From positions 744,001 to 808,000 of the forward strand of contig NZ_AP022583.1 of the NCBI RefSeq assembly GCF_010731635.1: a stretch of DNA of 64,000 bases. Reading direction: 5' to 3'. Position numbers and translations under genes: made by a program. The notes below the pieces were generated by a model that did not search any database, had not been told where the DNA came from, and worked only from the letters and a program-made list of their open reading frames with translations. The stretch comes from Mycobacterium noviomagense. GTDB lineage: Bacteria > Actinomycetota > Actinomycetes > Mycobacteriales > Mycobacteriaceae. Positions within the stretch are counted from its first letter, which is position 1. Every line of letters begins with the position of its first letter. Shown piece by piece: positions 6,679 to 25,201 of this stretch.

Positions 6679-8727
6679 ATGACATCACCGGCTGGCCGAC
6701 TGGGCATCCCGCTCTCGATCACCGACGTATGTAAGCGTGCCTTTCTGGGCAAGCCGATGATCACCGACGCGCTCCAGCACGAGAAACTGTCGAACCCTGT
6801 TGCACTCGGCGCGCTTTCGCCCGATGCCATCTCCTCCACCGCCTATGGTCCGGAGCAGATCATGGTGGAACTGCTGCCGGCCGCCGGCCTGGCCGCCTTC
6901 GTGTTGCTGCTCCCGGTCATCGGCGTCATCTTGTTGATCCTGGCGCTGGTGGCCGCGTCGTATCGCCAGGTCGTTATGGCCTACACCCGAGCTGGCGGCT
7001 CCTACATCGTCGCGCGGGAGAATTTCGGTCCGCGGGTGGCGCAGATCGCGGCGGCAGCGCTGTTGATCGACTACGTGGTGACCGTCGCGATCCAGTGCGC
7101 GGCCGGCACGGTGGCAGTGGCGTCGGCTATACCGGTGCTGGGCCCCTACAGCCTGGAAATCACCGTGGGCGCGGTGCTCATCTTCTGCTATGCCAACCTG
7201 CGCGGGTTGCGGGAGGCCGGGCGGACATTCGCCGTGCCGACCTATTGGTTCGTGGCCATGCTCGGCTTGATGATCGTAATCGGTATCGTTCGTGAGATCT
7301 TCTGGGGATTGCCGAAATACGATCCCGAGCACATTGTCGGTGCCGTGCCGGTCCATCAGGGCAGCGGCCTGGTGATGGGTGCGACGGTCCTGGTGATGTT
7401 GCGGGCGTTCGCCAACGGCGGCTCGTCGCTGACCGGCGTCGAGGCGATCTCCAATACTGTCAACCTCTTTCGTAAGCCGGAAGGCCCGAACGCGCGGCGA
7501 GTTCTCACCGTGATGGCCTGGATTCTCGGGCTCTCGCTGGCCGGTGTCGCGTGGCTCGGCTACGCAACCCACGCGACTCCGTATGCCGCCGGTTATCCGT
7601 CGATGCTTTCCGAAATCGGCCGCGCAGTTTTCGGCAACGGCATGGTCGGGAACATCTTGTACTTCCTGTTGCAGGCGTCGAGCGCCGCCATCTTGTACAA
7701 CGGCGCCAATACCAGCTTCAACGGCTTTCCCGCCCTCGCCAACTTCGTTGCCGAGGACCGCTTTCTGCCACGGCCGCTGATGAAACGCGGCCATCGCCTG
7801 GTGTTCTCCAACGCCATCATCACCCTCACCACCCTGGCGGTCGCACTGCTGCTGGCGACCGGCGGCTCGGTCAACGCGCTGGTGCCGCTTTTCGCGATGG
7901 GCGTGTTCAGCGCGTTCGCGATGGCCGGTTACGGCATGACGAAACACCATCTCACCCACCGTGAACCGGGCTGGCGCTACAAGCTGGTGGTCAACTTGTC
8001 CGCGGGAATTTTGTCGACACTCGTGGTGGGAATCTTCGCAGTCGCCAAGTTCACCGAGGGAGCCTGGCTGATCGTCGTGGTCTTCCCTGCGTTGGTGTTC
8101 GCATTGATGCGACTGAATCGGCAGTATCGTGCCGAGGCCTCCGCCCTGGAGATGTCTCGCACCAAGCCACCGGAATTCACCAAGCATGGACGTCATCGGG
8201 TGTTCGTCTTGGTGGACTCCGTCGACCTTGCGGAGGTCGAGGCACTGCGCTACGGCAAGGGGCTGCAGGCCGACGAGCTGGTGGCTGTTCACTTTGTGCT
8301 GGACGCGGCTCGTGCAGAACGATTGCAGCGGGGCTGGAAGCGCTTCGACGGCGATACCCCGCTGCGGGTGATCGACTGCCCGGATCGTCAACTGAACCGG
8401 GCCGCCCACGATCTGGTCCAGCAAACGCTCACCGAGCATCCGGGCTCCAAGATCACCGTACTGTTGCCGCGTCGAACGTATTCGCCGCTGTTGGGCCGAC
8501 TGCTTCATGACCGCACCGCGGACAAGATCGCCAAAGTCGTCAGCCGGATCCCGGGTGCCAGCGCGCAAATCGTGCCCTACGACATAAAGTCGCGCATAGC
8601 GCAGGTTTCCAAGGGCCCGCATGCCGATTCTCGGCCTAGGGAAATGCTGCCGACCGCCGGAACGATAAGCCCAAACGGCAACCGGCCCATGTCCATGGTC
8701 GACCCTGCACCCGGTGTGGTCGAGTGA
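6679..8727 (+). CDS. KimA-like potassium importer (APC/KUP superfamily), copy 1
   Basis: A 682-residue integral membrane protein. The start at ATG 6679 is preferred over GTG 6673 because AAGGA lies 8 nt before it. Residues about 35-480 hold the permease core with the signature run SNPVALGALSPDAISSTAYG-PEQIM, then YRQVVMAYTRAGGSYIVAREN and IDYVVTVA. These match the conserved parts of B. subtilis KimA/YdaO, a proton-coupled high-affinity K+ importer inhibited by c-di-AMP. About 180 C-terminal residues form a cytosolic universal-stress-like domain (HRVFVLVDSVDLAEVEALRYG). M. tuberculosis Rv2690c, near the ceoBC Trk genes, appears to be of this family. K+ as substrate is inferred from family and neighbourhood; an amino-acid permease is the alternative. 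Confidence 0.8.
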   Translation: MTSPAGRLGIPLSITDVCKRAFLGKPMITDALQHEKLSNPVALGALSPDAISSTAYGPEQIMVELLPAAGLAAFVLLLPVIGVILLILALVAASYRQVVMAYTRAGGSYIVARENFGPRVAQIAAAALLIDYVVTVAIQCAAGTVAVASAIPVLGPYSLEITVGAVLIFCYANLRGLREAGRTFAVPTYWFVAMLGLMIVIGIVREIFWGLPKYDPEHIVGAVPVHQGSGLVMGATVLVMLRAFANGGSSLTGVEAISNTVNLFRKPEGPNARRVLTVMAWILGLSLAGVAWLGYATHATPYAAGYPSMLSEIGRAVFGNGMVGNILYFLLQASSAAILYNGANTSFNGFPALANFVAEDRFLPRPLMKRGHRLVFSNAIITLTTLAVALLLATGGSVNALVPLFAMGVFSAFAMAGYGMTKHHLTHREPGWRYKLVVNLSAGILSTLVVGIFAVAKFTEGAWLIVVVFPALVFALMRLNRQYRAEASALEMSRTKPPEFTKHGRHRVFVLVDSVDLAEVEALRYGKGLQADELVAVHFVLDAARAERLQRGWKRFDGDTPLRVIDCPDRQLNRAAHDLVQQTLTEHPGSKITVLLPRRTYSPLLGRLLHDRTADKIAKVVSRIPGASAQIVPYDIKSRIAQVSKGPHADSRPREMLPTAGTISPNGNRPMSMVDPAPGVVE

Positions 8728-8746
8728 ACCTAGGAAGTGATGCGTT

Positions 8747-10753
8747 GTGACTACGTCGGGCAGCGGGCAGGAGCTACCGCCGTCATTCTCCGATGCGTGT
8801 AAACGGATTTTTCTGGGTAAGCCACTGACCAGCGAGCAGCTCGAATCAGAGAGACTGTCGAATCCGGTTGCTCTCGGGGCACTTTCGCCGGATGCGATTT
8901 CGTCGACCGCCTACGGTCCCGAGCAGATCATGATCACGCTGCTGCCCCATGTGGGGCTGGCTGCATTTGTGTTGTTGCTTCCGATCACCGGTGTCATTCT
9001 GCTTATCCTGGCGTCGGTAACCGCCTCATATCGCCAGGTCGTCATGGCCTATACCCAAGCGGGCGGCTCTTACGTGGTCGCGCGGGAGAACTTCGGCCCC
9101 CGGTTAGCACAAGTCGCCGCGGCTGCGCTGTTGATCGACTATGTGGTCACCGTCGCGATACAGCCTGCGGCCGGGACGGTGGCGGTGGTGTCGGCCATAC
9201 CCGCGCTCCGTCCCTACAGCCTGGAAATCATGGTGGCTGCGGTGCTCGTCTTTTGTATTGCCAACCTGCGTGGATTGCGTCAGTCGGGCCGGGCATTCGC
9301 CATAGCGACTTACTCTTTCGTCGGCATGCTCACACTGATGATCGTTACCGGCGTCATCCGCGAAATCTTCTGGGAGCTACCGAAATACGACCCACAACAT
9401 ATTGTGGGGGCGGTGCCGGTCCATGAAGGTGGGTTAGTGGCGGGTGCGACGATTTTCGTATTGCTGCGAGCATTTGCCAACGGGGGTTCGTCGCTGACGG
9501 GGATAGAGGTGATTTCCAACACCGTCAATGTCTTTCGGGAGCCGCAAGGTCCCAACGCCCGTCGCGTCCTCACCGCGATGGCCTGCATCCTCGGGCTGTT
9601 GTTGGCGGGCGTCGCCTACCTTGCCCACATCACCCACGCGACGCCCTATGTCGCTGGGTATCCGTCAATGCTGTCAGAGATTGCCCGGGCGGTCTTTGGT
9701 AACGGGGCGAGCGGGAACACCCTGTACTTTCTCGTCCAGGCGGCGAGCGCTGCCATCTTATTCACCGGTGCCAATACCGCCTTCGGCGGTTTCCCTGCGC
9801 TGGCCAGTTTCGTTGCCGGTGACCGTTTCCTGCCGCGGCCGCTGACAAAACGCGGTCATCGTCTGGTGTACTCCAACGGCATCATCACACTTACCGCACT
9901 GGCTGTGGCACTGCTACTGGTAACTGGCGGGTCGGTCCACGAACTGGTGCCGCTTTTCGCGATTGGCGTTTTCACCGCTTTCGCGATGGCCGGCTATGGC
10001 ATGACGAAACACCATCTCAGACATCGTGAGCCCGGCTGGCGACACAAGGCCATGGTCAATGTGGCCGCGGGAATCATGTCGACGGTGGTGGTCGGCGTCT
10101 TCGTGGTCGCCAAATTCACTCAGGGAGCCTGGCTGATAGTCGTCGTCTTCCCCCTGCTGGTGTTCGCATTGATGCGCCTCAACCGCCAGTACCGCGCGGA
10201 GGCCTCGGTTCTCGAGATGTCACGCACAGAGCCTCCCGACATAGCCAAGCATGCCCGACTTCGGGTCTTCGTCTTCGTGGACTCGGTCGACCTCGCCGAG
10301 GTCGAGGCACTGCGATACGGAAAGGGACTGCAGGCCGACGACCTGGTCGCGGTGCATTTCGTGGTGGACACGGATCACGCCGCACAGTTGCGGCAGCGCT
10401 GGGAGCGCTTCGATCACGACACCCGCCTTAGTCTGGTCGATTGTCCGGATCGCCACCTCAGCCGGGCCGCCCAAGAGTTCGTCATGCAGGCGCTGCACGA
10501 CAATCCGGGCTCGAAAGTGACGGTGTTGTTGCCGCGTCGAACATTTTCGCCGCTGCTGGGCCGGCTGCTGCACGACCGTACCGCCGACAAAATGGCCCGG
10601 GCCGTCAGCCGCATTCCCGGTGCGACCGCGATTATCGTGCCCTACGACATCAAGTCCCGGCTAACGGGGGCAGCACCGGAGATATTTGCAGAGCAGGGCG
10701 CGCCAGACAACGACCAATCGGAGCCGCGCATGCTGCGCATCGAGAAACACTAG
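8747..10753 (+). CDS. KimA-like potassium importer (APC/KUP superfamily), copy 2
   Basis: A 668-residue protein starting 20 bp after copy 1 and closely similar throughout: the same SNPVALGALSPDAISSTAYG core, the same YRQVVMAYTQAGGSYVVAREN segment and the same C-terminal cytosolic domain ending near PYDIKSRL. The tails differ (copy 1 ends PAPGVVE, copy 2 EPRMLRIEKH). The GTG start has an AGGA about 11 nt upstream. The short spacing implies one transcript, so either a heteromer or two importers with different affinity or regulation are possible. KimA works as a dimer, which makes a heterodimer conceivable. Confidence 0.8.
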   Translation: MTTSGSGQELPPSFSDACKRIFLGKPLTSEQLESERLSNPVALGALSPDAISSTAYGPEQIMITLLPHVGLAAFVLLLPITGVILLILASVTASYRQVVMAYTQAGGSYVVARENFGPRLAQVAAAALLIDYVVTVAIQPAAGTVAVVSAIPALRPYSLEIMVAAVLVFCIANLRGLRQSGRAFAIATYSFVGMLTLMIVTGVIREIFWELPKYDPQHIVGAVPVHEGGLVAGATIFVLLRAFANGGSSLTGIEVISNTVNVFREPQGPNARRVLTAMACILGLLLAGVAYLAHITHATPYVAGYPSMLSEIARAVFGNGASGNTLYFLVQAASAAILFTGANTAFGGFPALASFVAGDRFLPRPLTKRGHRLVYSNGIITLTALAVALLLVTGGSVHELVPLFAIGVFTAFAMAGYGMTKHHLRHREPGWRHKAMVNVAAGIMSTVVVGVFVVAKFTQGAWLIVVVFPLLVFALMRLNRQYRAEASVLEMSRTEPPDIAKHARLRVFVFVDSVDLAEVEALRYGKGLQADDLVAVHFVVDTDHAAQLRQRWERFDHDTRLSLVDCPDRHLSRAAQEFVMQALHDNPGSKVTVLLPRRTFSPLLGRLLHDRTADKMARAVSRIPGATAIIVPYDIKSRLTGAAPEIFAEQGAPDNDQSEPRMLRIEKH

Positions 10754-10838
10754 GTCGCGATCGTTCGGTGAACGACGTTCGCATTCGAGGGTTTAGCCGG
10801 GCGGACACGACCGGCTGGCGTCGCGCGGTCGTGCACTG

Positions 10839-12224
10839 ATGCTCGGGCAGGCCTACTTCGAGGCTGATTGGCGGCGGGAGGCACTGCGGACCAACCTGTG
10901 GGTGGTCCCGGTGGCGGAGACGCTGGCGATATTGCTGCTGTTTGCCCTCACCTTCTGGGCGGACCGTGCGGCGTACAACGGGATAATCGCGCTGCCGTCA
11001 TGGGTTCTGAGCGGTACGGCGGATTCGGCTCGAGTGGTCTTGGCCACGGTCGCCGCGGCGATCATCACCGTGGTCGGCATCGTTTTCTCGATTACCATCG
11101 TGGCCCTCACCCTGGCCTCAACGCAGTTTGGGCCTAGAATGTTGCGTATTTTCGTGCGCGACAGGGGAACTCAAGTTGTGTTGGGGACGTTCGTCGCGTC
11201 GTTTTGCTACGCGATGATCAGCCTGGTATCGGTCGGCGGAGGCCCGCATGGCGATTTCGTTCCGCATCTGTCGATCACCGTCACTTTGATCCTGACCTTG
11301 GCGGACGTCGGCGTGTTGATCTACTTCCTCAATCACATCGCCTCGATGATTCAGCTTCCGGTGGTGATCGCGCGGATCGCCGGCACGCTGGCCGACGAAA
11401 TCGCAGCACAAGATCGTGGTGGCGTGTTCGGTGTGGGAGCGGCACGCGGCCCCTCAGCCGAAGAATTGTTGGCGCAGTTAGCTGAGTCAGGCGCCCCGAT
11501 CCGCACTCCGCGCAGTGGCTATCTTCAGGTCATCCGCCACGACACACTGCTGAAGATCGCTTCTGCGGCCAATGCTGTCGTTCAATTGCCTTATCGACCG
11601 GGGCATTTCCTGGTCGCAGGTCAGGTAATGGCCTGGGTGTGGCCACCCGATGCTGCCGGATCTATCGAAAAGAGCCTTGCGCTCGGCCACGTTACCGGCG
11701 CCTATCGCACTCTGCCACAGGATATTTCGTTCGGCTTTGATCAGTTGGTCGAGATAGCGTTGCGTGCGCTGTCGCCGGCGGTCAACGACACGTTCACCGC
11801 GCTGACGTGCGTCGACTGGATCGCCGACTGCCTGTGCCGGATCTCCACTTCATGGCGCCCGCAACGGATCCGGCGTGACGCAGAGGGTCGCGTTCGCGTG
11901 ATCGCCTACCAAGCCGATTTCGATCGCCTGGTAGAGCGTACGTTCGACACCATCCGTCAGGCCGCAGCCGGCGTGCCGGCCATCATGATTCGCCAGCTCG
12001 ACGCGCTGGCCAAGGTCATCGAACAAACCCCCGACCGGACCCGGAGAACGGTGTTGATCCGCCAGGCCGAGGCGATCCAGCGCGCTAATCTGGCCACGGT
12101 GGTCGAACCCATGGACCGCGATGACGTCACGCAGCGCTACGAGATGACAATGGCACTGCTGCGCCCGACCCTTGCACCGGCATCGCCCGAAGGCGTTCAC
12201 CCGCCAATTACGGTGATTCAGTAG
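10839..12224 (+). CDS. DUF2254 integral membrane protein
   Basis: A 461-residue protein. Four hydrophobic segments lie in the first 190 residues (around 20-40, 65-95, 105-130, 145-175), followed by a long cytosolic part. Motifs typical of DUF2254 are visible: TLASTQFGPRMLRIFVRDRGTQVVLG, the SLVSVG segment, and LAVSPAVNDTFTAL-type text (here ALSPAVNDTFTALTCVDW). The function is unknown. It lies 85 bp after the second kimA copy on the same strand, so it may be co-transcribed. It faces the permease gene with only 16 bp between the stops. Confidence 0.75.
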   Translation: MLGQAYFEADWRREALRTNLWVVPVAETLAILLLFALTFWADRAAYNGIIALPSWVLSGTADSARVVLATVAAAIITVVGIVFSITIVALTLASTQFGPRMLRIFVRDRGTQVVLGTFVASFCYAMISLVSVGGGPHGDFVPHLSITVTLILTLADVGVLIYFLNHIASMIQLPVVIARIAGTLADEIAAQDRGGVFGVGAARGPSAEELLAQLAESGAPIRTPRSGYLQVIRHDTLLKIASAANAVVQLPYRPGHFLVAGQVMAWVWPPDAAGSIEKSLALGHVTGAYRTLPQDISFGFDQLVEIALRALSPAVNDTFTALTCVDWIADCLCRISTSWRPQRIRRDAEGRVRVIAYQADFDRLVERTFDTIRQAAAGVPAIMIRQLDALAKVIEQTPDRTRRTVLIRQAEAIQRANLATVVEPMDRDDVTQRYEMTMALLRPTLAPASPEGVHPPITVIQ

Positions 12225-12240
12225 CGTTCCGGGTCAACTC

Positions 12241-13533
12241 TTAGCCTAAGACGAAGTAACGTACCCATAGGTAACCGACGGAAAGTACCAACGAGGTCCC
12301 GGTCACGATCGCCCCCTTACGGGTGAAATCCCAAAACGAGATGGGAGTGCCTGCACGCTGGGCGATTCCGGCGACCACGATATTCGCGCTGGCCCCGACG
12401 GCAGTGAGGTTGCCACCGAGGACGGTGCCAAGCAGCAGGGCCCACCACAGCACGCCTTGGTTGGTGTGGTCGTGAATCGACGAGGCGAACTCCGCGACGA
12501 TCGGCGTCATCGCTGCGGCATAGGGGACGTTATTGACGAACCCGCTGAACAGAAACGACACTCCGAGGATCAACATCGTCGTGAGCCAGGCATTGCCGTG
12601 GGTCGCATGGCTAGCGAGATGGGCCAGCGCGTTGATGACACCAGTCTTTACCAAAGCCCCGACCATGATGAACAGGCCCGCGAAGAACAGCAGAGTCTCC
12701 CACTCGACGCTGGACAGGTAGAACTCACGGGTCAGACCGGACATCACGATGAGGATGCCGGCACCGGTCATCGCCACCAGCGACGGCTCCATGTGAATCT
12801 CCTTGTGCGCGACGAAGCCTGCGAACACCGCAACGAGGACAATCCCACACTGGATCAGCAGTCGACGGTTTTGGATAGCTTCTCCCTCGTCCAATGACAT
12901 GACATCGGCGACCCGCTCGGCGTCGGCGGTGAAAGCGCCGGGGAACATGCGGGGCAAAAGCGCCAGCAGGGCGCCGAGAATAATGACCACGGCTGGCGCC
13001 ATGTGGACGAGGAAGGAGATGAAACTCAGCTTGGCTCCGGTGCCGATGATGATCGTGGTCGGGTCACCGACCAGGGTCGCCGCACCCCCGATGTTGGCGG
13101 CGAACGCCTCGACCATGAGAAATGGCGCGGCACTGACCGCCAGCCGCTCGCACACCAAAAGCGTGACCGGTGCAATCAACAAGACCGTGGTCACGTTGTC
13201 CAGGAAGGCCGATCCGAACGCAGTGACAAGCACCAGCAATACCATGATTCGCAGCGGGGAACCTTTGGCGCGCTTGGCTGACCAGATCGCCACGTAATCG
13301 AAGACACCGGTCTGGCGTACCACGCTGACGATGATCATCATCCCCAACAGCAGAAAGATGACGTCCCAGTCGATCCCGGTCGCGCGTGAGTAGAAGACTT
13401 CATCGGAATTGATCATCGGCAAAAAGAACATGGCCGTCGCGCCGGCCAGTGCCACCAACGTCGTGTTCACGCGGTCGCTGGCGATCAACGCGTACGCGAC
13501 CACGAATATCGTGGCCGCATAGATGGCGCTCAT
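12241..13533 (-). CDS. ArsB/NhaD (SLC13-like) ion transporter
   Basis: A 430-residue membrane protein with about 11 hydrophobic segments. The start at 13533 ([12 protein letters not shown]) is chosen because GGGGGAG lies just upstream and the family begins directly with the first helix; a longer reading frame would overlap the CBS gene. The motif [16 protein letters not shown] and the later [14 protein letters not shown] repeat are the paired substrate-site segments of the IT/ArsB/NhaD group, which moves arsenite, Na+/H+ or anions. M. tuberculosis ArsA/ArsB1 are related. In this potassium neighbourhood a cation/proton role is tempting, but the sequence does not decide it. A CBS protein is encoded 58 bp upstream on the same strand. 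Confidence 0.8.
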
Positions 13534-13591: not shown

Positions 13592-14035
13592 TCAAGATTT
13601 GAGCACGGCGGCAAGCAGACGCGATGCTGTGATCACGCCCTGCAACCCGCCGTCCTTGGTCACCGGGATCAGCGGGCTTCTCAGCCGCGCCATCACCGCC
13701 GCTACCTCGATGATGGTGTCGTCGACATCGGCCGGCGGTACGTCGGTCAGGTGCTCGGGCAGCATGTCGCCGACCGTCTTGCCTTCCAACCTTTCCGCAA
13801 CGTGATCAGCCATCGACTCCTGCAGCACACCCGCCAGTGACGGATCATCTTGCACATAGCGCGGCACGATGAAGCGGACCACCTGGGAGGCCGGTAGTAC
13901 CGCATAGGGGCTGCCCGAGGCGTCGACGACCAAGACTCCAGGTAGGCGCCGCAGCGCTAACATGCGAACAGCTTCGAGTGCCTCCGAATCGGTGGTCAAG
14001 ACCGGAAAATCCTCAGCCATATCGGCAGCGCGCAT
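13592..14035 (-). CDS. CBS-domain pair protein
   Basis: A 147-residue soluble protein made of two CBS motifs (about residues 1-58 and 85-147). [23 protein letters not shown] and [25 protein letters not shown] show the typical beta-strand and helix pattern. CBS pairs bind adenine nucleotides such as ATP, AMP or c-di-AMP and often gate a transporter. It is encoded directly upstream of the ArsB/NhaD-type permease on the same strand, so it is probably that transporter's regulatory subunit. The ligand is unknown. Confidence 0.8.
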
Positions 14036-14292
14036 ACGGCGAAGTTACTACCGCCCGTCAGCGACTGCAGGGCCAACCGGCTCACCGCCGGTCAAGCGGT
14101 CGAGTTGCTGCGCCCGGCGCAGATGGAGGTCCGCGACGGTAGGCGAGGCGTAAAGAAAGCGTCAACGTCCCTGCCCTCCGGGCACCGACGCGCTTACCGT
14201 CATTGCAGGCCTCACCAGGGAGGGCGCAGTTAATGCTGCTTCGAATGTGGTCGATGCATCGGCCAGTCGGGGTTGTCGTGAACGGAGAACAG
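14036..14292 (+). promoter_or_regulatory. Divergent control region of the CBS/permease and kdp operons
   Basis: 257 bp between the divergent CBS gene and the kdp operon. It contains GTAAAG at 14150 and GTCAAC at 14161, spaced 11 bp and resembling a degenerate copy of the repeated box. It is the obvious place for a KdpE site. No known E. coli-style KdpE box is recognisable. Confidence 0.4.
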
Positions 14293-14376
14293 GTGTCTGT
14301 CGTGCTCTACCTTGTGCTGACGGTTGCGGTTTTCGCTCTGCTCGGCACGGTCCTGAAGCTGGTCGAACGATTGTGA
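14293..14376 (+). CDS. 27-residue membrane micropeptide coupled to kdpF
   Basis: The predicted peptide is one hydrophobic helix ([16 protein letters not shown]) with a charged end (KLVERL), resembling KdpF in design. GGAG lies 6 nt before the GTG start at 14293; an in-frame GTG at 14278 is an alternative. Its stop overlaps the kdpF start as GTGA (14373-14376), the same coupling style used elsewhere in this window. It is too short for standard gene callers. A likely role is stabilising or regulating the Kdp complex. Coding status is inferred from ribosome binding site, composition and overlap. Confidence 0.6.
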
Positions 14377-14462
14377 CCGCCGCGAACATTGTCGGTCTGG
14401 TGCTGGCCGTCCTGCTCGCGTTGTTGCTCGGTGCGGCCCTGATCTTTCCGGAGCGGTTCTAG
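14373..14462 (+). CDS. kdpF: K+-transporting ATPase small subunit KdpF
   Basis: A 29-residue single-helix peptide ([24 protein letters not shown]). Its hydrophobic core and the final PERF are the normal KdpF end. The GTG start overlaps the preceding micropeptide stop by 4 nt and its TAG shares one base with the GTG start of kdpA. KdpF stabilises the KdpABC complex in the membrane. Confidence 0.88.
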
Positions 14463-16135: not shown

Positions 16136-18292
16136 ATGGTCTCCGTCGCAACGGGTTCGAGCGCACCACATGCCAGCCATGCGCCGGCGGAACGGGTTCA
16201 CGGCGGTCTGCTCGACCCCAAGATGCTGGTGACGTCGCTGCCGGATGCCCTGCGAAAGCTCGATCCCCGCACCCTGTGGCGCAACCCGGTGATGTTCATC
16301 GTCGAGATCGGCGCTGTGTGGTCAACGGTCCTGGCGATCGGCGAACCGAGCTGGTTCGGGTGGCTTGCCGTGTTCTGGCTTTGGCTGACAGTGCTATTCG
16401 CCAACCTGGCCGAAGCGGTCGCCGAGGGTCGAGGTAAAGCGCAAGCTGACGCCCTGCGCAGGTCCAAGGCCGACACGATCGCGCGCCGGCTGCGCGATTG
16501 GGTGCCCGGGGCCGCGGGCATCGAGGAACGCGTTCCCGCACCGCTGCTGCAGCAAGGTGACATCGTCGTCGTCGAAGCCGGCCAGATCATCCCGGGAGAC
16601 GGTGACGTCATCGAAGGCATTGCCTCGGTGGACGAATCGGCCATCACCGGCGAATCGGCACCGGTGATCCGGGAATCCGGCGGCGACCGCTCGGCGGTCA
16701 CCGGAGGAACCACCGTGCTGTCGGATCGCATCGTGGTCAAAATCACCCAGAAGCCCGGGGAAAGCTTCGTGGACAAGATGATTGCGCTGGTGGAGGGCGC
16801 CAATCGGCAAAAGACGCCGAATGAGATCGCGCTGAACATCCTGCTGGCCGCGCTGACGATCATCTTCCTGTTCGCGGTCGCGACGCTGCAGCCGCTGGCG
16901 ATCTACTCCAAGGCCAACAACCCCGGTGTGCCCGACACCGTCGCTGTCGGGGCTGGCGGCGTCACCGGAATCGTCTTGGTAGCGCTGCTGGTATGTCTGA
17001 TCCCCACCACGATCGGTGCGCTGCTCTCGGCGATCGGCATCGCCGGAATGGACCGGCTGGTGCAGCGCAACGTCTTAGCCATGTCCGGGCGCGCCGTCGA
17101 AGCAGCAGGTGACGTCAACACCCTGCTGCTGGACAAAACCGGAACGGTGACGCTGGGCAACCGGCAAGCGTCGGAGTTCATTCCGCTCAGCGGCGTGACT
17201 TCCGAGGCCCTGGCCGACGCCGCGCAGCTGGCCAGCCTCGCCGACGAAACGCCCGAAGGCCGCTCGATCGTCGTGTACGCCAAAGACGCTTACGGGTTGC
17301 GCGCCCGGACACCGGGCGAACTCGCCGACGCTTCGTGGGTGGAGTTTTCCGCCACGACCCGCATGTCTGGTGTCGACGTCGACGGACGCCAGCTGCGCAA
17401 GGGCGCGGCCAGCGCCGTCGCCGAATGGATACGCGGCCACGGCGGAAAGGTCCCCGTCATCCTGGGCGAGATCGTCGACGGAATCGCCGCTGCCGGTGGA
17501 ACTCCGCTTGTCGTCGGGCAGGTAACGGCGGTCGACGGCGGAAAAAAGGCCGAGGTGCTCGGCGTCATTTACCTGAAAGACGTCGTCAAGCAAGGCATGC
17601 GCGACCGGTTCGACGCCATGCGCCGGATGGGCATCCGAACCGTGATGATCACCGGTGACAATCCGTTGACCGCCAAGGCAATTGCCGACGAAGCGGGCGT
17701 CGACGACTTTCTCGCCGAGGCCACCCCCGAAGACAAGCTGGTGCTGATCAAACAGGAGCAGGAGGGTGGTCGGCTCGTCGCGATGACCGGCGACGGCACG
17801 AACGACGCACCGGCGCTGGCTCAGGCCGACGTGGGGGTGGCGATGAACACCGGAACCACCGCGGCCAAGGAAGCCGGCAACATGGTGGATCTGGACTCCG
17901 ACCCCACCAAGCTCATCGAGATCGTGGAGATCGGCAAGCAGTTGTTGATCACCCGCGGCGCGCTGACCACGTTCTCGATCGCCAACGACATCGCCAAGTA
18001 TTTCGCGATCATCCCGGCGATGTTCGTCGCCCTGTTTCCGGGTCTGGACCTGATCAACGTGATGCGGCTGCACAGCCCGCAGTCCGCGATCCTATCGGCC
18101 GTCATCTTCAACGCACTGGTCATCGTGGCCCTGATTCCGTTGGCGCTGCGCGGTGTTCGCTACACCCCCAGCAGCGCGTCGAAACTGCTCAGCCGCAACC
18201 TGTACGTCTACGGACTGGGCGGAATCGTCAGCCCGTTCATCGGAATCAAGTTGATCGACTTGGTGGTTCAACTGCTACCCGGGATGTCTTAA
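16136..18292 (+). CDS. kdpB: K+-transporting ATPase ATP-binding subunit B (KdpB)
   Basis: A 718-residue P-type ATPase. The actuator TGES motif is at about residues 171-174 ([12 protein letters not shown]), the phosphorylated aspartate near residue 333 in [10 protein letters not shown], and the hinge motif in [21 protein letters not shown]. It hydrolyses ATP to drive K+ import through KdpA. In E. coli, phosphorylation of the TGES serine switches the pump off at high K+; that serine is present here. Length and motifs are complete, and kdpC follows after 2 bp. Confidence 0.97.
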
Positions 18293-18294
18293 AG

Positions 18295-19218
18295 ATGAAG
18301 TTCACCAACGTGGTACGCCAACACTGGGCCGCCTTGCGCGCGCTGCTCGTGTTCACCGTCATCCTGGGTGCCGGATACCCGCTGCTCATTTGGTTGGTCG
18401 CGCAGCTTCCAGGTTTGCATGATAAGGCGGAGGGCTCCATCATTCGGGCCCACGGTAAACCGGTTGGCAGCCGGCTGATCGGCCAATCGTTCACCGACGC
18501 CGCCGGCCGCGCGTTGCCCCAGTATTTCCAGAGCCGCCCGTCGGCGGCCGGCGACGGCTATGACCCCACCGCCAGTGGCGCCGGCAATCTGGGACCCGAA
18601 AGCGTCGTCGATACCCCGGCCGACCCGGCCAAGCTGGCAGCCGGTGCCAAGCCTGCCGAGGCCGGATTCAAGCCGAGCCTGCTCACCCTGGTGTGTTCGC
18701 GCAGCAAGGACGTCGGCGAACTGGAGCAGGTCGGCGGATCGCGTCCGTTCTGCACCGGCGGCGGTGTCGGGGCGGTGCTGTCGGTGATCGGGCCCCGCGA
18801 TGCACGCGGCAATGTGGTGCACCCGACCAGGGTGGTCAGCGTCAACGAGCCCTGCGCAACCACCAGCGAGCCATTTGTCGCGACCTACGAAGGGGTACGG
18901 GTCGAGTGCGCACGCTTCGGCGAGGACTACTCGATCGGTCAAATCGTGCCCATCCGTGGCTCAGCGCCCTCCACTCCCGAGGTGCCGGCTGACGCCGTGA
19001 CCGCCAGCGGCAGCGGTCTCGATCCCGATATCTCACCGGCCTACGCCGACATCCAGGTCACCCGGATTGCCCGGGCACGTCATGTCACAGTGGCTCAGGT
19101 ACGCGAGTTGGTGGGCGAGAACCAGCGTGGGCGTGATCTGGGCATCTTCGGTGAGCCGCGGGTCAACGTGTTGCAGCTCAACCTGCAGCTTGACCAGAGG
19201 TTTCCGGTCGCACGCTGA
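18295..19218 (+). CDS. kdpC: K+-transporting ATPase subunit C (KdpC) with a Cys-containing insert
   Basis: A 307-residue protein, much longer than the roughly 190 of E. coli KdpC. The N-terminal membrane anchor (residues 13-40), the early domain ([34 protein letters not shown]) and the end ([31 protein letters not shown]) are normal. Between about residues 103 and 230 sits extra sequence holding the protein's only four cysteines (C134, C153, C187, C205), which lie outside the membrane and could form two disulfides. The stop shares one base with the kdpD start. The insert looks like an ordered domain rather than a frameshift product because flanking motifs stay in frame. Confidence 0.93.
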
Positions 19219-21830
19219 TGTCGCAGGTGGATGATGGTCACATGAGCGTCGTTGACCATCGCCGCAAACGCGGGGAGCTGCGCATCTATCTGGGTGCGGC
19301 TCCGGGCGTCGGCAAGACGTACGCGATGCTGTCCGAGGCCCATCGGCGGCTGGAACGCGGCACCGATCTGGTAGCCGGTGTGGTGGAGACGCACGGCCGC
19401 CGCAAAGTCGCGGAGCTGCTCAAGGGCATCGAGGTCATTCCTCGCCGCCGCATCGAGTACCGCGGTAGCTCCTTCGCCGAACTCGACGTGCCGGCCGTGC
19501 TAGCCCGCAATCCGCAGGTGGTCCTGGTCGACGAGCTCGCCCACACCAACGTCCCTGGCAGCAAGAACCCGAAGCGATGGCAGGACGTCGAGGAGCTGCT
19601 TGACGCCGGTATCACGGTGATCTCCACGGTCAATATCCAGCATCTGGAGAGCCTCAACGACGTGGTCGCCCAGATCACCGGGATCGAGCAGCAGGAAACC
19701 ATACCGGATTCGGTGGTACGCCAGGCCTCCCAGATCGAGCTCATCGACATTACGCCAGAAGCGCTGCGGCGCAGGCTATCCCACGGCAACGTCTACGCGC
19801 CGGAAAAGATCGACGCGGCACTGTCGAACTACTTCCGCAGCGGAAACCTCACCGCGCTTCGCGAATTAGCGCTGCTGTGGCTGGCTGACCAGGTCGACGC
19901 CGCGCTGGCCAAATATCGTGCCGACAAACGGATTACCGACACCTGGGAGGCCCGCGAGCGCGTCGTGGTGGCGGTCACCGGTGGCCCGGAATCCGAGACA
20001 CTGGTGCGCCGAGCATCCCGGATCGCCTCGAAAGCCAGCGCCGAGCTGATGGTGGTGCATGTCCTGCGCGGCGACGGGCTTTCGGGTGTGTCGGCATCTC
20101 GGATGGGCAAGATCCGGGAACTGGCCGCCAGCCTTGATGCTTCGCTGCACACCGTGGTTGGCGACGATGTGCCTACGGCGCTACTGGATTTCGCTCGCGA
20201 GATGAACGCCACCCAGCTGGTGATCGGGACATCGCGGCGCTCTCGGTGGGCACGCGTTTTCGACGAAGGCATCGGCGCCGCGGTCGTGCAGCGGTCCGGC
20301 AAGATCGACGTGCACATCGTCACTCACGAGGAATCCAAGCAGGGCTTTCGGACGGCATCGATTTCGCCGCGCGAACGCCGCACCGCATCGTGGCTGGCGG
20401 CCCTGATCGTCCCGTCCGTCATCTGCGCGGTGACGGTCGCCTGGCTTCAGCGGTTTTTGACCACCAGCGGGGCAAGCGCGCTGTTCTTCGTCGGGGTGCT
20501 GGTGGTTGCCTTACTGGGAGGCGTTGCCCCGGCGGCTCTTTCGGCGGTGCTGTCCGGTCTGTTGCTCAACTACTACCTGACCCCTCCCATCCATAGCTTC
20601 ACCATCGCCGAGCCCGACGCCGCGGTCACCGAGCTGGTGTTGTTGGTGATGGCCGTGGCGGTGGCAGTTCTCGTCGACGGCGCGGCCAAACGCGCCCGCG
20701 AAGCGGGACGGGCATCGCGGGAGGCGGAGCTGTTGACGCTGTTCGCGGGATCGGTGCTGCGCGGCGCGGACCTGGAGACACTGCTCGAGCGGGTGCGTGA
20801 GACCTACGCGCAGCGTGCGGTCAGCGTGCTTCGCGAGCGCGGCGACGGCAGTCGCTACGTCGCGGCAGCAGTCGGCAGGGAACCGTGCACCACAGTCGAT
20901 TCCGCCGATACCGCGATCGACGTCGGCGACGACGAGTTCTGGATGCTGCTGGCGGGCAAGAAGCTGGCCGCCCGGGATCGCCGCGTGCTGAGCGCGGTGG
21001 CCAAGCAGGCCGCGGGTCTGATCAAACAGCGTGAGCTTGCCCAGGAGGCCAGCCGGGCCGAAGCGATCGGCCAGGCCGACAAGCTGCGCCGCTCCTTGCT
21101 GTCGGCGGTCAGCCATGATCTGCGCACACCACTGGCAGCGGCGAAGGTCGCGGTCTCCAGCCTGCGGGCCCAAGATGTCGACTTCTCCGCCGAGGACACC
21201 GCCGAATTGCTCACCACCATCGAGGAATCGATCGACCAGCTCACCGCGCTGGTGGGCAATCTGCTCGACTCGTCGCGGTTGGCGGCCGGCGCAATTCGCC
21301 CCGAGCTGCATCGGGTGTACCTCGAGGAAGCGGTGCAGCGCGCGCTGGTCAGCATCGGCAAGGGCGCCACTGGCTTCTTCAGATCCGGTATCGACCGCGT
21401 CAAGGTCGACGTCGACGGATCGGTCGCGATGGCCGACGCCGGGCTGCTGGAACGAGTTTTGGCGAACCTTATCGACAACGCATTGCGCTACGCGCCCAAC
21501 TGTGTGGTGCGCGTCAACGCAGGAAGGGTGGGCGATCGCGTGCTGATCAACGTGATCGACGAAGGTCGCGGAATCCCGCGCGGCAGCGAGGAACAGATCT
21601 TCGAGGCCTTCCAGCGGTTGGGGGACCACGACAACACCACCGGTGCGGGATTGGGGCTGTCAGTGGCGCGCGGCTTCGTCGAGGCCATGGGCGGCACGAT
21701 CCAGGCGACCGACACGCCGGGCGGCGGATTGACGGTCGTCGTGGATCTCGCTGCGCCGCAGGGGGATGGGGCCGCGCCGATTCAGCGCGACGCGACCAGC
21801 GTCACCGTCCAGGAGGAGCGGCGCACTTGA
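19218..21830 (+). CDS. kdpD: Sensor histidine kinase KdpD
   Basis: An 870-residue sensor. The N-terminal KdpD domain has a Walker A loop at residues 26-34 (GAAPGVGKT). A universal-stress-protein domain spans about 250-370, four membrane helices (DUF4118) about 390-490, and a GAF-like region follows. The HisKA H-box is at H633 (SHDLRTPLA), and the HATPase has N, G1 and G2 motifs (NLIDNALRYAPN, DEGRGIP, GAGLGLSVARG). It senses K+ limitation or turgor and phosphorylates KdpE. Unlike M. tuberculosis, where I recall kdpDE being divergent from kdpFABC, here it continues the structural operon with start and stop codons overlapping. Confidence 0.96.
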   Translation: MSQVDDGHMSVVDHRRKRGELRIYLGAAPGVGKTYAMLSEAHRRLERGTDLVAGVVETHGRRKVAELLKGIEVIPRRRIEYRGSSFAELDVPAVLARNPQVVLVDELAHTNVPGSKNPKRWQDVEELLDAGITVISTVNIQHLESLNDVVAQITGIEQQETIPDSVVRQASQIELIDITPEALRRRLSHGNVYAPEKIDAALSNYFRSGNLTALRELALLWLADQVDAALAKYRADKRITDTWEARERVVVAVTGGPESETLVRRASRIASKASAELMVVHVLRGDGLSGVSASRMGKIRELAASLDASLHTVVGDDVPTALLDFAREMNATQLVIGTSRRSRWARVFDEGIGAAVVQRSGKIDVHIVTHEESKQGFRTASISPRERRTASWLAALIVPSVICAVTVAWLQRFLTTSGASALFFVGVLVVALLGGVAPAALSAVLSGLLLNYYLTPPIHSFTIAEPDAAVTELVLLVMAVAVAVLVDGAAKRAREAGRASREAELLTLFAGSVLRGADLETLLERVRETYAQRAVSVLRERGDGSRYVAAAVGREPCTTVDSADTAIDVGDDEFWMLLAGKKLAARDRRVLSAVAKQAAGLIKQRELAQEASRAEAIGQADKLRRSLLSAVSHDLRTPLAAAKVAVSSLRAQDVDFSAEDTAELLTTIEESIDQLTALVGNLLDSSRLAAGAIRPELHRVYLEEAVQRALVSIGKGATGFFRSGIDRVKVDVDGSVAMADAGLLERVLANLIDNALRYAPNCVVRVNAGRVGDRVLINVIDEGRGIPRGSEEQIFEAFQRLGDHDNTTGAGLGLSVARGFVEAMGGTIQATDTPGGGLTVVVDLAAPQGDGAAPIQRDATSVTVQEERRT

Positions 21831-22507
21831 CACGTGTGTTGGTCATCGACGACGAGCCGCACATCCTGCGGGCGCTGCGGATCAACCTGTCCGTGCGCGG
21901 TTACGAAGTGACTACCGCCGCGAGCGGCGCCGGTGCGCTACGTGCCGCGGCCGAACACCGGCCGGATGTCGTGATCCTGGATCTGGGGCTGCCGGACATC
22001 TCCGGCACCGAGGTATTGGCCGGGCTGCGCGGCTGGCTCAATGCACCGGTCATCGTGCTCTCGGCGCGCACCGACTCGTCGGACAAGGTCGAAGCGCTCG
22101 ATGCGGGCGCCGACGACTACGTGACCAAGCCGTTTGGTATGGACGAGTTCCTCGCCCGGCTACGCGCAGCGGTGCGCCGCAACGCCGCGGCAACCGAGAT
22201 CGATCAGCCGGTTATCGAAACTTCTTCTTTCACAGTCGATTTGGCTGCCAAAAAAGTGATCAAAAACGGTGCAGAAGTTCACCTGACGCCGACCGAGTGG
22301 GGAATGCTGGAGGTGTTGGCTCGGAACCGCGGCAAGCTGGTGGGTCGCGAAGAGCTTCTCAAAGAGGTGTGGGGACCGGCGTACGCCACCGAAACACACT
22401 ATCTGCGTGTCTATTTAGCGCAGCTGAGACGCAAACTCGAAGACGACCCATCGCGACCTAAACATCTGCTCACCGAGGCGGGCATGGGATATCGCTTCGA
22501 AACATGA
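21827..22507 (+). CDS. kdpE: Response regulator KdpE
   Basis: A 226-residue OmpR-family regulator. The receiver has the acidic pair DDE near residue 8-10, the phospho-acceptor D52 (VVILDLGLPD) and K101 region (YVTKPFGMDEF). The C-terminal winged helix carries VHLTPTEWGMLEVLARN and YLRVYLAQLRRKLEDDP. The TTG start overlaps the kdpD stop as TTGA. It activates kdp transcription when phosphorylated by KdpD. OmpR-type regulators bind direct repeats about 11 bp apart, the geometry of the GTTAA pairs found in this window. Confidence 0.96.
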   Translation: MTRVLVIDDEPHILRALRINLSVRGYEVTTAASGAGALRAAAEHRPDVVILDLGLPDISGTEVLAGLRGWLNAPVIVLSARTDSSDKVEALDAGADDYVTKPFGMDEFLARLRAAVRRNAAATEIDQPVIETSSFTVDLAAKKVIKNGAEVHLTPTEWGMLEVLARNRGKLVGREELLKEVWGPAYATETHYLRVYLAQLRRKLEDDPSRPKHLLTEAGMGYRFET

Positions 22508-22580
22508 TGTTAATTCCGCGCAATCAATCGTAACGCGTTTCAAATTCATTCTTTAGGTATTTGCTAGTAGAGTCCCGCCA

Positions 22581-22832
22581 ATGAAAAATGTGGCGCATTT
22601 GCCTATGGCGGTCACCGTTGCCGCTGGTATCGCACTGACGGGTTTGGCGGGGACCCAAATTGCTGTTGGGTGGGCTGGCGGCTGGCAGGCTACGGCCTAC
22701 CACACCGGTCGTGCGATGGCCGGCGCTATGCACAACGAGGGCAATAACGCCGGTGAGCCCGCCAATTACCCCGGCGATGGCACCGACAATTATGGGACCG
22801 ACAGTGGCGGAGGCGGAGGCGCGGGAGGATGA
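22581..22832 (+). CDS. Small exported Gly-tailed protein
   Basis: An 83-residue protein: a signal peptide (hydrophobic residues about 8-29), then WAGGWQATAYHTGRAMAGAM, an Asn/Gly/Asp-rich stretch and a GGGGGAGG end. No family is recognised. It has no cysteine. It stands 73 bp after kdpE on the same strand. A promoter-like AT-rich stretch (about 22530-22570) precedes it, so it may be independently expressed. Coding is supported by the coherent signal peptide and low-complexity polar tail. Confidence 0.5.
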   Translation: MKNVAHLPMAVTVAAGIALTGLAGTQIAVGWAGGWQATAYHTGRAMAGAMHNEGNNAGEPANYPGDGTDNYGTDSGGGGGAGG

Positions 22833-23437
22833 GCCACCGAGTGCTGCTCCGGTGAGCTGGGCGCTACTTGCCGTATTAACTTTCTGTTAAGCGCGTGGAT
22901 GCTCGGGGTTGTCCGCCATCGGCATCCAGCGCGAGCTACTGAGGCCGACCGTCGAGCGAAGAACCAGAACCGCGATCCTCGACAGGTCGCCCAGCGCACT
23001 CGCAGCACCACTGAAACTTGCCTGCCTAGTGCGGTTTTCGCGCCGCGGGATTGCGCGTTGCCGACCCCATTTTGCCTTACGGCAATGTCAAAATTTTTGC
23101 TCAGCACACCTATGCAATCGGTGCGTCGCCGTAGTCCTTCCCTCGTTCAGTCGCTCGTGGCGCCATTCGACCTTCCGGTGATTTAACCGGCGGCGCTTGG
23201 CCGGTCGATTTATAGTCATGCCCATCAATGTCAGTCGAAGGGGGTTGATGCCTGACAATATGAAGCCGTGGTGTAACGGTCGAGACAACCAGGTCGAGTT
23301 CTTTCGGCTTGGCACGACGTCGGGCGATATCGGGACCATTGTCCATCGCGGTCGGCCGCGTTTTTCCGGCAAACCTGGTCCGCTGAAGTCTTCGACCGCT
23401 CGACCGCAATCGAGCTTTGGGTATAACGGACAAGGCC
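22833..23437 (+). promoter_or_regulatory. About 600-bp upstream region of the RCK channel gene
   Basis: No gene is recognised. One box of the repeated type lies at its left end (ATTAAC at 22875, GTTAAG at 22886, 11 bp apart). The last 200 bp is lower in GC than its surroundings, consistent with a promoter or leader. Confidence 0.4.
22875..22891. promoter_or_regulatory. Candidate OmpR-type response-regulator box
   Basis: ATTAAC, five bases, GTTAAG, with repeat starts 11 bp apart, about 550 bp before the RCK channel gene and 43 bp after the small exported protein. Confidence 0.45.
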
Positions 23438-25201
23438 ATGCAGAGCCACATAATCGTCAGCGGTGAAGACGCGCTGGCGACAACGATCGTCGAGGAGCTG
23501 AAAAGCGCCGGCGCGAGCATAGCCAAGCTCGCCAACTCTGAATTTTCCGACGCGGGGGTCCAAACAGAGCTTGCCGCCGCAGGGGTCGCCCGAGCAGTGG
23601 CCGTTGTGTGCGCAGGTGATGACGACGCGACAAATCTCGAAATCGCGCTGCTGGCAAGGAAAGCCAACCCGGACACCCGCGTGGTGGCTCGGCTGGCCAA
23701 TGACGTGCTCCGAGAAGCGGTGGCCGCCGATAACGGGCCGGGCGCAATCCTCAACGTCGCTGACCTTGCGGCGCCGGCAATCGTCGAGGCGTGTCTGGCG
23801 CACACCATGCACCCGTTCGAGGCGGCCGGCATCAAATTCGTTGTCTGGGGCACCGAAGCACAGCGTGACGCGACGCTGCGCGAGCTCTACGGCGACTTGG
23901 CACCGGTGGCGGTGATCCATGGAGACAACTCCCCCACGCCCGACGAGGTGGTGGTGTGTCCCGGCCGCGATTTGCGGGTGCATGCCGGCGACTGGACGGC
24001 GATGATCGGGACAGCCGACGAACTGGCCGCCCGCGCCATCAAGGTGCCGCGCCCGACCGGAACACGCGCGCGTCAGCCGCGGCTGCGGCGAGTGCTCGAC
24101 GCGGCACGCACCCTACGCGACGACATCAACCCGGCGTTTTACCCCGTGATCGCCGCGGTGCTCGCCCTGCTGTTCGGCGCAACGGCCGTGTTGCGATTCA
24201 CCTACACCGGGCGCAGCGGGATGTCGTGGGTTGACGCGTTGTACTTCACGACCGAGACGATCACCACGACGGGCTACGGCGACTTCAGCTTCAGCCACCA
24301 GCCGACATGGCTGCGACTGTTCGCCGCCATGTTGATGTTCGGTGGCGTGACGACCATTGCTCTGCTTGTCTCGTTCATTGCCGACGTCCTGCTGTCGCGC
24401 CGCTTCGTCTACTCGGCCGGACGGCCGAGGGTGCGTCATCTGCGCAACCACATCATCGTCGTCGGGCTGAGCGCGCTCGGCATCCGCGTCGTCAGCGACT
24501 TGATCGCCGCCGGCTATGACGTCGCGGTGATTGAACACGACGAGAATAACCGCTTCCTGTCGTCGGCGGCAGAGCTCGACGTGCCGGTGATATTCGGGGA
24601 CGCGACGCTGCCCCAGACGCTGGAAGCGGCCCGCGTCGACCGCGCCCGCGCAGTGGCTGTCCTGACGCGCGACGACATCATCAATATCGAGACCGGGATC
24701 GTGCTCCGGGAGATGTTGGGACCCCGGGTGTGGCCCGATATTAACCGGTGGCGGGACGTTCCGATTGTGCTGCGGGTCTACGACCGCACGCTGGGCTTCG
24801 CGGTGGCGCAAAGGTTCGACTTCCAAAACGTTCGCTCGACCGTCGAACTGGCCGCACCATGGTTCATCGGTGCCGCGATGGGCCTGCAGGTGCTGGGGAC
24901 GTTTTCGGTCGGGCAGAGCTCGTTTGTGGTCGGTGCAATGCACGTCGAACCCGGCAGTGAACTCGACGGGCTGCGAATGTTTGATATGTCCACCCAGACG
25001 CGCGTCATCGCGATCACCCGTCCGAACGAACCCGTCAAGCTGCATCCGCGCCGCGATGCCCTGCTGAGAGGCGGCGACACGGTCTATCTCGTCGGCCCCT
25101 ACCGAGAACTGCTCGACACTTTGCGCAAGGGACAGCCGCCCCAGCAGTCCAGTACCCAAGACGACCGCCCGCGCGAAGATCAAGAGGTCAGCCGACGGTA
25201 A
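23438..25201 (+). CDS. Potassium channel with RCK domains on both sides of one pore
   Basis: A 587-residue protein; ATG 23438 is chosen for the AAGG just upstream (an in-frame TTG at 23417 would add 7 residues). Residues 1-200 form an RCK/TrkA-like module (HIIVSGEDALATTIVEEL) lacking the usual GxGxxG glycines. Two membrane helices flank the filter TTGYGDFSF near residue 278. A second RCK module follows (HIIVVGLSALGIRVVSDLIAAGYDVAVIEHD) with a TrkA-C-like end. The filter is that of a K+ channel and the C-terminal RCK would bind a nucleotide or ion to gate it. Probable role: K+ flux balancing the importers in the same island. The paralogue in M. tuberculosis, Rv3200c, is shorter. Confidence 0.82.
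   Translation: MQSHIIVSGEDALATTIVEELKSAGASIAKLANSEFSDAGVQTELAAAGVARAVAVVCAGDDDATNLEIALLARKANPDTRVVARLANDVLREAVAADNGPGAILNVADLAAPAIVEACLAHTMHPFEAAGIKFVVWGTEAQRDATLRELYGDLAPVAVIHGDNSPTPDEVVVCPGRDLRVHAGDWTAMIGTADELAARAIKVPRPTGTRARQPRLRRVLDAARTLRDDINPAFYPVIAAVLALLFGATAVLRFTYTGRSGMSWVDALYFTTETITTTGYGDFSFSHQPTWLRLFAAMLMFGGVTTIALLVSFIADVLLSRRFVYSAGRPRVRHLRNHIIVVGLSALGIRVVSDLIAAGYDVAVIEHDENNRFLSSAAELDVPVIFGDATLPQTLEAARVDRARAVAVLTRDDIINIETGIVLREMLGPRVWPDINRWRDVPIVLRVYDRTLGFAVAQRFDFQNVRSTVELAAPWFIGAAMGLQVLGTFSVGQSSFVVGAMHVEPGSELDGLRMFDMSTQTRVIAITRPNEPVKLHPRRDALLRGGDTVYLVGPYRELLDTLRKGQPPQQSSTQDDRPREDQEVSRR

Follow-up and report, generated by a model that had tools for sequence, protein, structure and literature searches.

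The window analysed here is a stretch of 64,000 nucleotides from Mycobacterium noviomagense, covering bases 744001–808000 of a single-contig 4.78-Mb genome (G000). It was compared with 198 sampled genomes of one genus (G labels) and with fetched loci (L labels). Between 2.6 and 28.4 kb, the window holds the kdp potassium uptake genes within a larger cluster; the named kdp loci closest to them stem mostly from mycobacteria and nocardiae. On the plus strand, a predicted KdpE-binding box precedes genes for a PE and a PPE protein, encoded as a pair according to Pfam, and two esx genes, and a second box precedes kimA1, kimA2, and a DUF2254 gene. An ArsB/CitMHS permease gene and a CBS gene follow on the minus strand, and the intergenic DNA between CBS and kdp contains a third box. 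Downstream lie a 27-codon open reading frame (ORF), kdpF-A-B-C-D-E, an 83-aa ORF, an RCK-pore-RCK channel gene, a fourth box, and two PPE-SHOCT genes, with ppx2 on the minus strand behind them. Since all four box matches fall within 22.7 kb, the unit to be considered is a proposed KdpE regulon cluster, which extends beyond the interval 6679–25201 that a preliminary description had singled out as a potassium island. Homology searches of the window genes (Pfam, NCBIfam, PDB) bore out the coordinates and gene content given there; the gene list was right except that the DUF2254 gene had been missed.

The definition of the box goes back to M. smegmatis, whose kdp promoter was footprinted with KdpE, the minimal sequence bound being CCGTAAAGAAACCATCAAGGCC (PMC5401905, in the part available). 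The element in the window fits this footprint and is a direct repeat with an 11-bp period, CGTnAAGAAnnCGTnAA. Inspection of the intergenic DNA revealed direct repeats that are nearly identical before kimA1 and the PPE-SHOCT pair, whereas the repeat before kdpF is weaker. The exact pattern GTTAAN6GTTAAC occurs three times in the 4.78-Mb genome, each time in this locus (reversed control, 0). With at most one mismatch, CGTNAAGAANNCGTNAAS matches four times, always here and on the plus strand (reversed control, 2), namely before the PE-PPE-esx-esx genes, kimA1-kimA2, kdpFABC, and the SHOCT-PPE pair. Because these pattern queries were partly derived from the window, a position weight matrix (PWM) was trained solely on sites outside the window, 39 in number (36 unique) and drawn from the kdp promoters of 45 loci; these sites had been picked with the window's own consensus. 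Its top four sites in the 64-kb window are the same ones (32.8, 28.4, 24.8, and 24.3), followed by a weaker fifth (19.8) at 2402–2419, some 200 bp upstream of the box that belongs to PE. By analogy with the M. smegmatis footprint, KdpE would be expected to bind these boxes, and the presence of a footprint-type site at four promoters strongly supports the KdpDE control that had been proposed initially, as far as this can be judged from sequence.

The position of the box is conserved across actinobacterial kdp promoters, loci from Nocardia and Actinomadura included. A site with at most five mismatches to the window box is present in 43 of 46 kdpA upstream regions, and one with at most four in 35 of 46; the mean best value for shuffled sequences is about six. 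The boxes before the PE-PPE, KimA, and PPE-SHOCT genes might nevertheless be read by another OmpR-family regulator instead of KdpE, as the sites of this family resemble one another and many relatives carry, between esx and kdp, a regulator gene related to KdpE at 34–36%. Going by likeness, we assume that TrcR-like is an appropriate label for this neighbor. However, kdp promoters of Nocardia and Actinomadura carry the same box, the box fits the KdpE footprint, and a search of the window at E ≤ 0.01 brought up no KdpE-like gene besides kdpE itself, which makes such a regulator quite improbable.

Table 1. Features of the kdp cluster in the window (positions within the 64,000 nucleotides).
Feature	Position	Strand	Evidence or remark
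KdpE-type box before PE-PPE-esx-esx	2605..2622	+	1 mismatch; PWM score 24.3
PE-like remnant, 49 codons	2742..2891	+	49% identity over 41 aa to PE at 3103, E 0.003
PE protein (PE and PPE-SVP C-terminal domain)	3103..3957	+	Pfam E 4e-29
PPE protein (PPE-SVP)	4031..5230	+	Pfam E 9e-66
WXG100 (Esx) protein 1	5353..5649	+	Pfam
WXG100 (Esx, EsxI-like) protein 2	5678..5962	+	Pfam
Predicted KdpE box, 496 bp 5' of kimA1	6183..6200	+	Genome pattern scans, PWM
KimA1, KUP/KimA-type K+/H+ symporter	6679..8727	+	PDB 6s3k E 1.7e-94
KimA2, tandem paralogue	8747..10753	+	Same Pfam domain; 77% identical to KimA1
DUF2254 membrane protein	10839..12224	+	Pfam E 4e-112
ArsB/CitMHS-superfamily permease	12241..13533	-	Pfam CitMHS E 1e-85
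CBS-pair protein	13592..14035	-	Pfam
Predicted KdpE box of kdpFABC	14149..14166	+	PWM 32.8; 114 bp from divergent CBS start
27-codon transmembrane micropeptide ORF	14293..14376	+	4-nt overlap with kdpF; in 89 loci; synonymous excess
kdpF	14373..14462	+	NCBIfam TIGR02115, below cut-off
kdpA	14462..16132	+	TIGR00680, Pfam
kdpB	16136..18292	+	TIGR01497
kdpC	18295..19218	+	Pfam
kdpD	19218..21830	+	Pfam
kdpE	21827..22507	+	Pfam
83-aa Gly-rich, signal-like ORF	22581..22832	+	Without Pfam/NCBIfam match
RCK-pore-RCK K+ channel, filter TTTGYGD	23438..25201	+	Pfam TrkA_N x2, Ion_trans_2; MthK E 1e-14
Predicted KdpE box, 288 bp 5' of PPE-SHOCT pair	25257..25274	+	PWM 28.4; pattern scans
PPE-SHOCT protein 1	25545..26972	+	Pfam
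PPE-SHOCT protein 2	26977..28410	+	Pfam; SHOCT 20.3 bits, below cut-off

An exact-pattern scan of the 198 genomes returned at least 150 sites in 117 of them and six control matches. Besides 77 of the 150 listed sites, which lie 205–345 bp 5' of kdpA, 73 listed boxes are situated elsewhere, and all of these were inspected. A PE-PPE pair is found downstream of 38 of the 73; in one of these cases the distance is about 750 bp and a one-mismatch box lies closer to the pair, and in another only the PPE was detected. Single boxes precede a DUF2254 gene, kimA1 and a PPE-SHOCT gene (both in G000), a further kdpA, and a gene weakly similar to the RCK channel beside kdpDE; one more lies beside a kdp operon. 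An additional check covered the kdpA-upstream regions of 20 hand-picked genomes, 18 of them 15 kb long and two (G001, at a contig end, and G211) about 4 kb. Nineteen of these genomes have no exact PE-PPE box among the matches listed, and the box of G211 is on another contig, its kdpA-upstream region being devoid of PE-PPE. The kdp box is present in 20 of 20 regions, in tandem at several promoters; PE-PPE occurs in eight, and each of the eight has a weaker box, recognized by the PWM (21.3–24.4), about 140–285 bp before PE. Other boxes scoring above 15 were seen once in L262, close to DUF2254 and a second kdpA, and once in L267, where the box is weak. Loci fetched for other reasons include five PE genes no more than 15 kb from kdp, three of which are preceded by a box, and 12 PE genes elsewhere, none of which has one.

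The association of PE-PPE with the regulator genes is direct in the order box-PE-PPE-kdpD-kdpE, encountered in four genomes (G016, G124, G197, and G204) with no kdpA at E ≤ 1e-120 among the matches listed. PE-PPE-kdpD-kdpE also lies beside kdpFABC in G022, G096, and Mycolicibacter arupensis (L029, a stretch that ends before the PE promoter). The PPE stop is 4 bp from the kdpD start in six of the seven PE-PPE-kdpD loci, the seventh being L185 of G197. Three box-like sites near PE/esx genes were seen in L193 of G094 (at 5996, 6653, and 9010). A box-like motif between TetR-like and methyltransferase genes in five genomes (L217, L219, L234, L248, and L251) was set aside as probably another regulator's site; it is also near a sigma-factor-like gene, these gene names coming from reading the translations.

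Among the other targets, the kimA1 gene of G140 has a box about 167–169 bp upstream (PWM 25.8), and box-like sites accompany KimA copies in G039 (24.6), G054, G212, G030 (two), and G031. The last of these genomes possesses a KimA-DUF2254/ArsB-CBS cluster away from kdp, with weak sites before KimA (13.6) and CBS (15.9). One of six DUF2254 entries, that of G212, has a strong box (29.8).

We interpret the locus, at a probability of roughly 0.78, as a KdpE regulon cluster in which exported PE/PPE proteins stand alongside K+ uptake systems. Several points weigh against this interpretation. The boxes of kimA1 and PE lie 496–498 bp from the start codons, farther than at kdp. The long distance at PE (498 bp) can be attributed to the intervening remnant PE copy at 2742, which starts 137 bp past the box, near the spacing seen in relatives, but no comparable explanation exists for the 496 bp at kimA1. 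Scores above 11 within 400 bp were obtained for only 9 of 79 KimA entries (seven distinct places), no RCK upstream region (0 of 49 entries) exceeded 11, and PPE1 has a strong box in only 4 of 32 entries, from three places (G000, G209, and G140). Where RCK-PPE pairs are linked to kdp in G212, G030, and G106, a box is lacking. Furthermore, 13 of the 73 boxes outside kdp promoters lie inside one conserved coding gene, five at one unrelated intergenic site (both groups are kept in the denominator), and 11 elsewhere. The order PE-PPE-esx-esx near kdp is common to the window and to PE8-PPE15-EsxJ-EsxI of M. tuberculosis, which we take to be its counterpart. In that organism, the unit is reported to be PhoP-repressed, with PE8-PPE15 being induced in a phoP mutant (PMC4038636, in the part available), whereas a KdpE box is found here and in many relatives, the M. 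tuberculosis promoter itself lying outside the comparison. Binding of KdpE to kdp was not seen in M. tuberculosis, according to the accessible text of PMC5401905, and PE8, Rv1039c, and esxI are not named in the main texts (gene tables not covered) of two M. tuberculosis low-K+/kdpDE transcriptome papers (PMC6375644, PMC12210973). The open-licence (PMC) literature, most of it judged superficially, yielded no link between KdpE and PE/PPE proteins.

The kdp operon itself is complete. All genes of kdpFABCDE were recognized, KdpA and KdpB by NCBIfam and KdpC, KdpD, and KdpE by Pfam; kdpF, A, B, and C are present and colinear, KdpF scoring 21.4 bits, below the NCBIfam cut-off of 26.85. The tight spacing described earlier is evident from kdpA to kdpE, where gaps do not exceed 3 bp or genes overlap. 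The gene set and the upstream KdpE box are shared with kdpFABC-kdpDE of M. smegmatis, for which one low-K+ transcript is reported (PMC5401905, partial text), but here the box also stands before the KimA, PE-PPE-esx, and PPE-SHOCT units. A coupled micropeptide had been included in the preliminary description as well, and the best candidate is the 27-codon ORF 5' of kdpF, which shares its last 4 nt with the beginning of kdpF; the 83-aa ORF behind kdpE is a different one. A first scan revealed a hydrophobic ORF at this position in 84 of 94 kdpA loci, and a second one, with the 4-nt overlap fixed, in 89 loci ranging from mycobacteria to Micromonospora, 81 of which have ATG or GTG at the same first codon. 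Among pairs at least 70% identical, synonymous changes exceed expectation in the micropeptide frame only (0.55 observed, 0.30 expected), compared with 0.19–0.20 observed and 0.23–0.30 expected in the other frames. Three versions of the peptide gave no Pfam or NCBIfam match above cut-off. This pattern of conservation adds to the operon a putative, unnamed 27-aa peptide that overlaps kdpF and appears to be conserved across actinobacteria. The 5'-UTR (untranslated region) of M. smegmatis kdpF, described as 120 nt long (PMC5401905, in part), should contain this ORF.

Both KimA-like importers announced earlier were confirmed, KimA1 by its match to 6s3k and KimA2 by its shared domain and high identity to KimA1. 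KimA1 aligns with KimA (YdaO) of Bacillus subtilis (6s3k/8b70) over residues 18–574, with the last part of the cytosolic domain outside the alignment. Judged by the residues that matter in the B. subtilis protein (accessible parts of PMC6994465 and PMC10284832), both copies keep D36, Y43, T121, T230, E233, and R337, whereas the K+-site residue Y377 is replaced by F and S125 by Q. These two replacements, and the assignment of the proteins by Pfam to AA_permease_2, would be compatible with amino-acid permeases, in which case the cluster would not concern K+ alone. This is very unlikely, however, as the sole PDB relative of KimA1 at E ≤ 0.001 is KimA, and D36, Y43, T121, T230, and E233 are retained.

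Control of the locus by cyclic di-AMP (c-di-AMP), with a riboswitch, KdpD-USP, KimA, RCK, or CBS as receptor, had been proposed alongside KdpDE control, but is not supported by the sequence features that bear on it and appears improbable. No ydaO-type riboswitch was detected in the window at the Rfam gathering threshold or in 5000–26000 at E ≤ 1, the Rfam scans having matched nothing but two tRNAs and, by chance, a miRNA model; in this respect and in having a KdpE box, the window copies differ from B. subtilis kimA. The KdpD-USP c-di-AMP motif, searched as a regular expression, is absent from the window KdpD. It was taken from PMC8214093, the available part of which reports that M. tuberculosis KdpD-USP bound c-di-AMP at about 0.7% relative affinity. 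In the KimA pocket, the stretch H579 N580 Q581 S582 (HNQS) is replaced by HDRT in all seven copies of the KdpE clade that were inspected, including KimA1 and KimA2, whereas the housekeeping KimA of the same genome, only 36% identical, has retained HNQS. A structure model of the CBS protein (predicted local distance difference test, pLDDT, 78) shows a generic CBS pair closest to 4noc, with DarB among many matches, and does not reveal the ligand. Considering the pocket residues and boxes, a division of labor is likely, in which the housekeeping KimA is under c-di-AMP and the starvation KimA pair under KdpE; the low-K+ copies may have escaped a c-di-AMP brake to which the housekeeping copy still seems to be subject.

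This housekeeping KimA is encoded at 3.60 Mb of G000 together with two TrkA proteins and a paralogous ArsB-CBS pair, presumably the locus named ceoBC-Rv2690c-Rv2683/2685 elsewhere. Both loci combine KimA with ArsB-CBS, but the housekeeping KimA lacks a box match and keeps the c-di-AMP pocket residues. The occurrence of an ArsB-CBS pair beside housekeeping KimA and TrkA provides independent support for a role of ArsB-CBS in K+ physiology. Altogether, G000 carries four KdpE-clade KimA genes and one housekeeping KimA, and no match to the classical Kup family (K_trans, PF02705) was found in this genome. In a further region (L174/L111; 4.203–4.243 Mb), which has no KdpE box match, paralogues of KimA1 (84%) and of the RCK channel (78%) are grouped within about 30 kb together with PPE genes and two more Esx pairs, the latter sharing 94–100% identity with the pair in the window. 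The KdpE-clade KimA of G029 seems broken (L098 and L123; several pieces, one stop).

The ArsB permease with its CBS protein and the double-RCK channel, both part of the original gene list, were confirmed by Pfam. The channel has its K+ filter at residue 276 and resembles the RCK-gated K+ channels MthK and, as we assume for comparison, GsuK in combining such a pore with RCK domains; it differs from them in having one RCK-like domain before the pore and one after it. The distance from kdpE to the RCK gene is about 170–225 bp in G140, G209, G030, and G212, and because this gap is short, the channel is perhaps co-transcribed with kdp in these genomes, whereas 930 bp and the additional 83-aa ORF intervene in the window. 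When this ORF was searched against 273 fetched loci at E ≤ 1e-3, no match other than itself was returned. Nocardia sp. CC227C (L024) has an ArsB-CBS pair (62/60%) about 3.4 kb from kdpC, so the association of ArsB-CBS with kdp also exists outside the mycobacteria. A structure model of the DUF2254 protein was too poor for a fold search (mean pLDDT 66; predicted template modeling score, pTM, 0.42) and was not used.

The linkage of kdp with KimA is rare: among the matches listed, two of 198 genomes (G000 and G140) have kdpA and a KimA of the KdpE clade no more than 20 kb apart. In the same listings, kdpA and an RCK channel of the window family lie within about 15 kb of each other in six genomes (G000, G140, G209, G212, G030, and G106). 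G140 retains PPE-PPE-RCK-kdp-CBS/ArsB-KimA-KimA without DUF2254 and the 83-aa ORF; the gene set is thus not unlinked in all close relatives. G209 has kdp-RCK-PPE-PPE with a TrcR-like gene replacing the KimA-to-CBS part, and in G094 a CBS gene (90%) lies beside kdp, KimA being present only as a remnant (residues 178–315). Away from kdp, a KimA pair divergent from RCK exists in at least 11 genomes (G001, G010, G031, G069, G075, G083, G084, G103, G155, G166, and G218), and RCK is followed by PPE in all eight such clusters fetched with enough flank. Since the modules KimA-KimA/RCK-PPE, KimA-DUF2254/ArsB-CBS, and kdp-RCK-PPE are also found apart, the cluster appears to have been assembled from modules. 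The view that it stands in place of a compact Kdp locus is fair: a KdpE-clade KimA, ArsB, CBS, or RCK gene was found in none of 19 named mycobacterial kdp loci (L001–L004, L007, L009–L012, L014–L016, L018, L019, L023, L025, L027, L029, and L041), the flanks examined reaching 10 kb at most and in many cases being truncated where a contig ended. A KimA of the 35% type is present in one of them, the locus of M. moriokaense (L015). A single co-evolved locus, as initially envisaged, claims too much in view of the 2/198 linkage of kdp and KimA and the separate modules. Identity profiles in 1-kb steps (kdpD to ppx2, about 76–88% for G209 and 71–82% for G140; mixed over kdpABC) were suggestive at most of a recombination origin, an idea that was dropped.

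On the interpretation as a KdpE regulon cluster, K+ limitation would cause KdpD to phosphorylate KdpE, which would then bind the box at the four promoters and switch on the PE-PPE-Esx-Esx, KimA1-KimA2(-DUF2254), micropeptide-kdpFABCDE, and PPE-SHOCT units; the RCK channel, situated behind the kdpFABCDE operon, would probably be switched on too. ATP-driven KdpFABC and proton-coupled KimA would import K+ across the inner membrane, and the RCK channel and the ArsB/CBS permease would be likely valves setting net flux and Na+/H+ balance. The genes, the boxes, the confinement of the boxes to this locus within the genome, and their conservation are observed; we infer KdpE binding at this locus, the induction at low K+, and all transport roles that go beyond the homology of Kdp and KimA. 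The PE/PPE/Esx proteins would act outside the inner membrane, most plausibly by passing K+ through the mycobacterial outer membrane, and their function is the weakest step of this explanation.

PE, PPE, and Esx proteins are surface families secreted by ESX systems. They might accordingly be surface or immune-interaction factors without any part in K+ permeation, low K+ serving as a host or niche cue; we regard this as a plausible reading, if not one to be favored. It would agree with the binding and repression of the M. tuberculosis PE8-PPE15 operon by the virulence regulator PhoP (PMC4038636, partial text) and with a review (PMC3610689) that, in the part available, ties KdpDE to virulence. 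However, PE-PPE shares one operon with kdpD-kdpE even where no kdpA was detected, which is closer than a virulence link needs, and PPE genes adjoin the RCK K+ channel in the eight fetched clusters away from kdp. The more specific proposal that the PE-PPE pair in the position of PE8-PPE15 is dedicated to conducting K+ through the outer membrane of mycobacteria, under the control of KdpDE, is tentative and, on balance, rather doubtful. If it is true, K+ starvation would co-induce K+ entry through the outer membrane, the inner-membrane pumps (Kdp and KimA), and the exit valves (RCK and ArsB-CBS), and in some species the operation of the PE-PPE pair would be the sole reason for retaining KdpDE.

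In many mycobacteria, a large part of the genome consists of PE/PPE genes, few of which have a known function. The conserved KdpE site and the PE-PPE-kdpD-kdpE operons tie one PE-PPE pair to a defined ionic signal, and the boxes described here suggest that mycobacterial KdpE can control KimA-type symporters and not Kdp alone.

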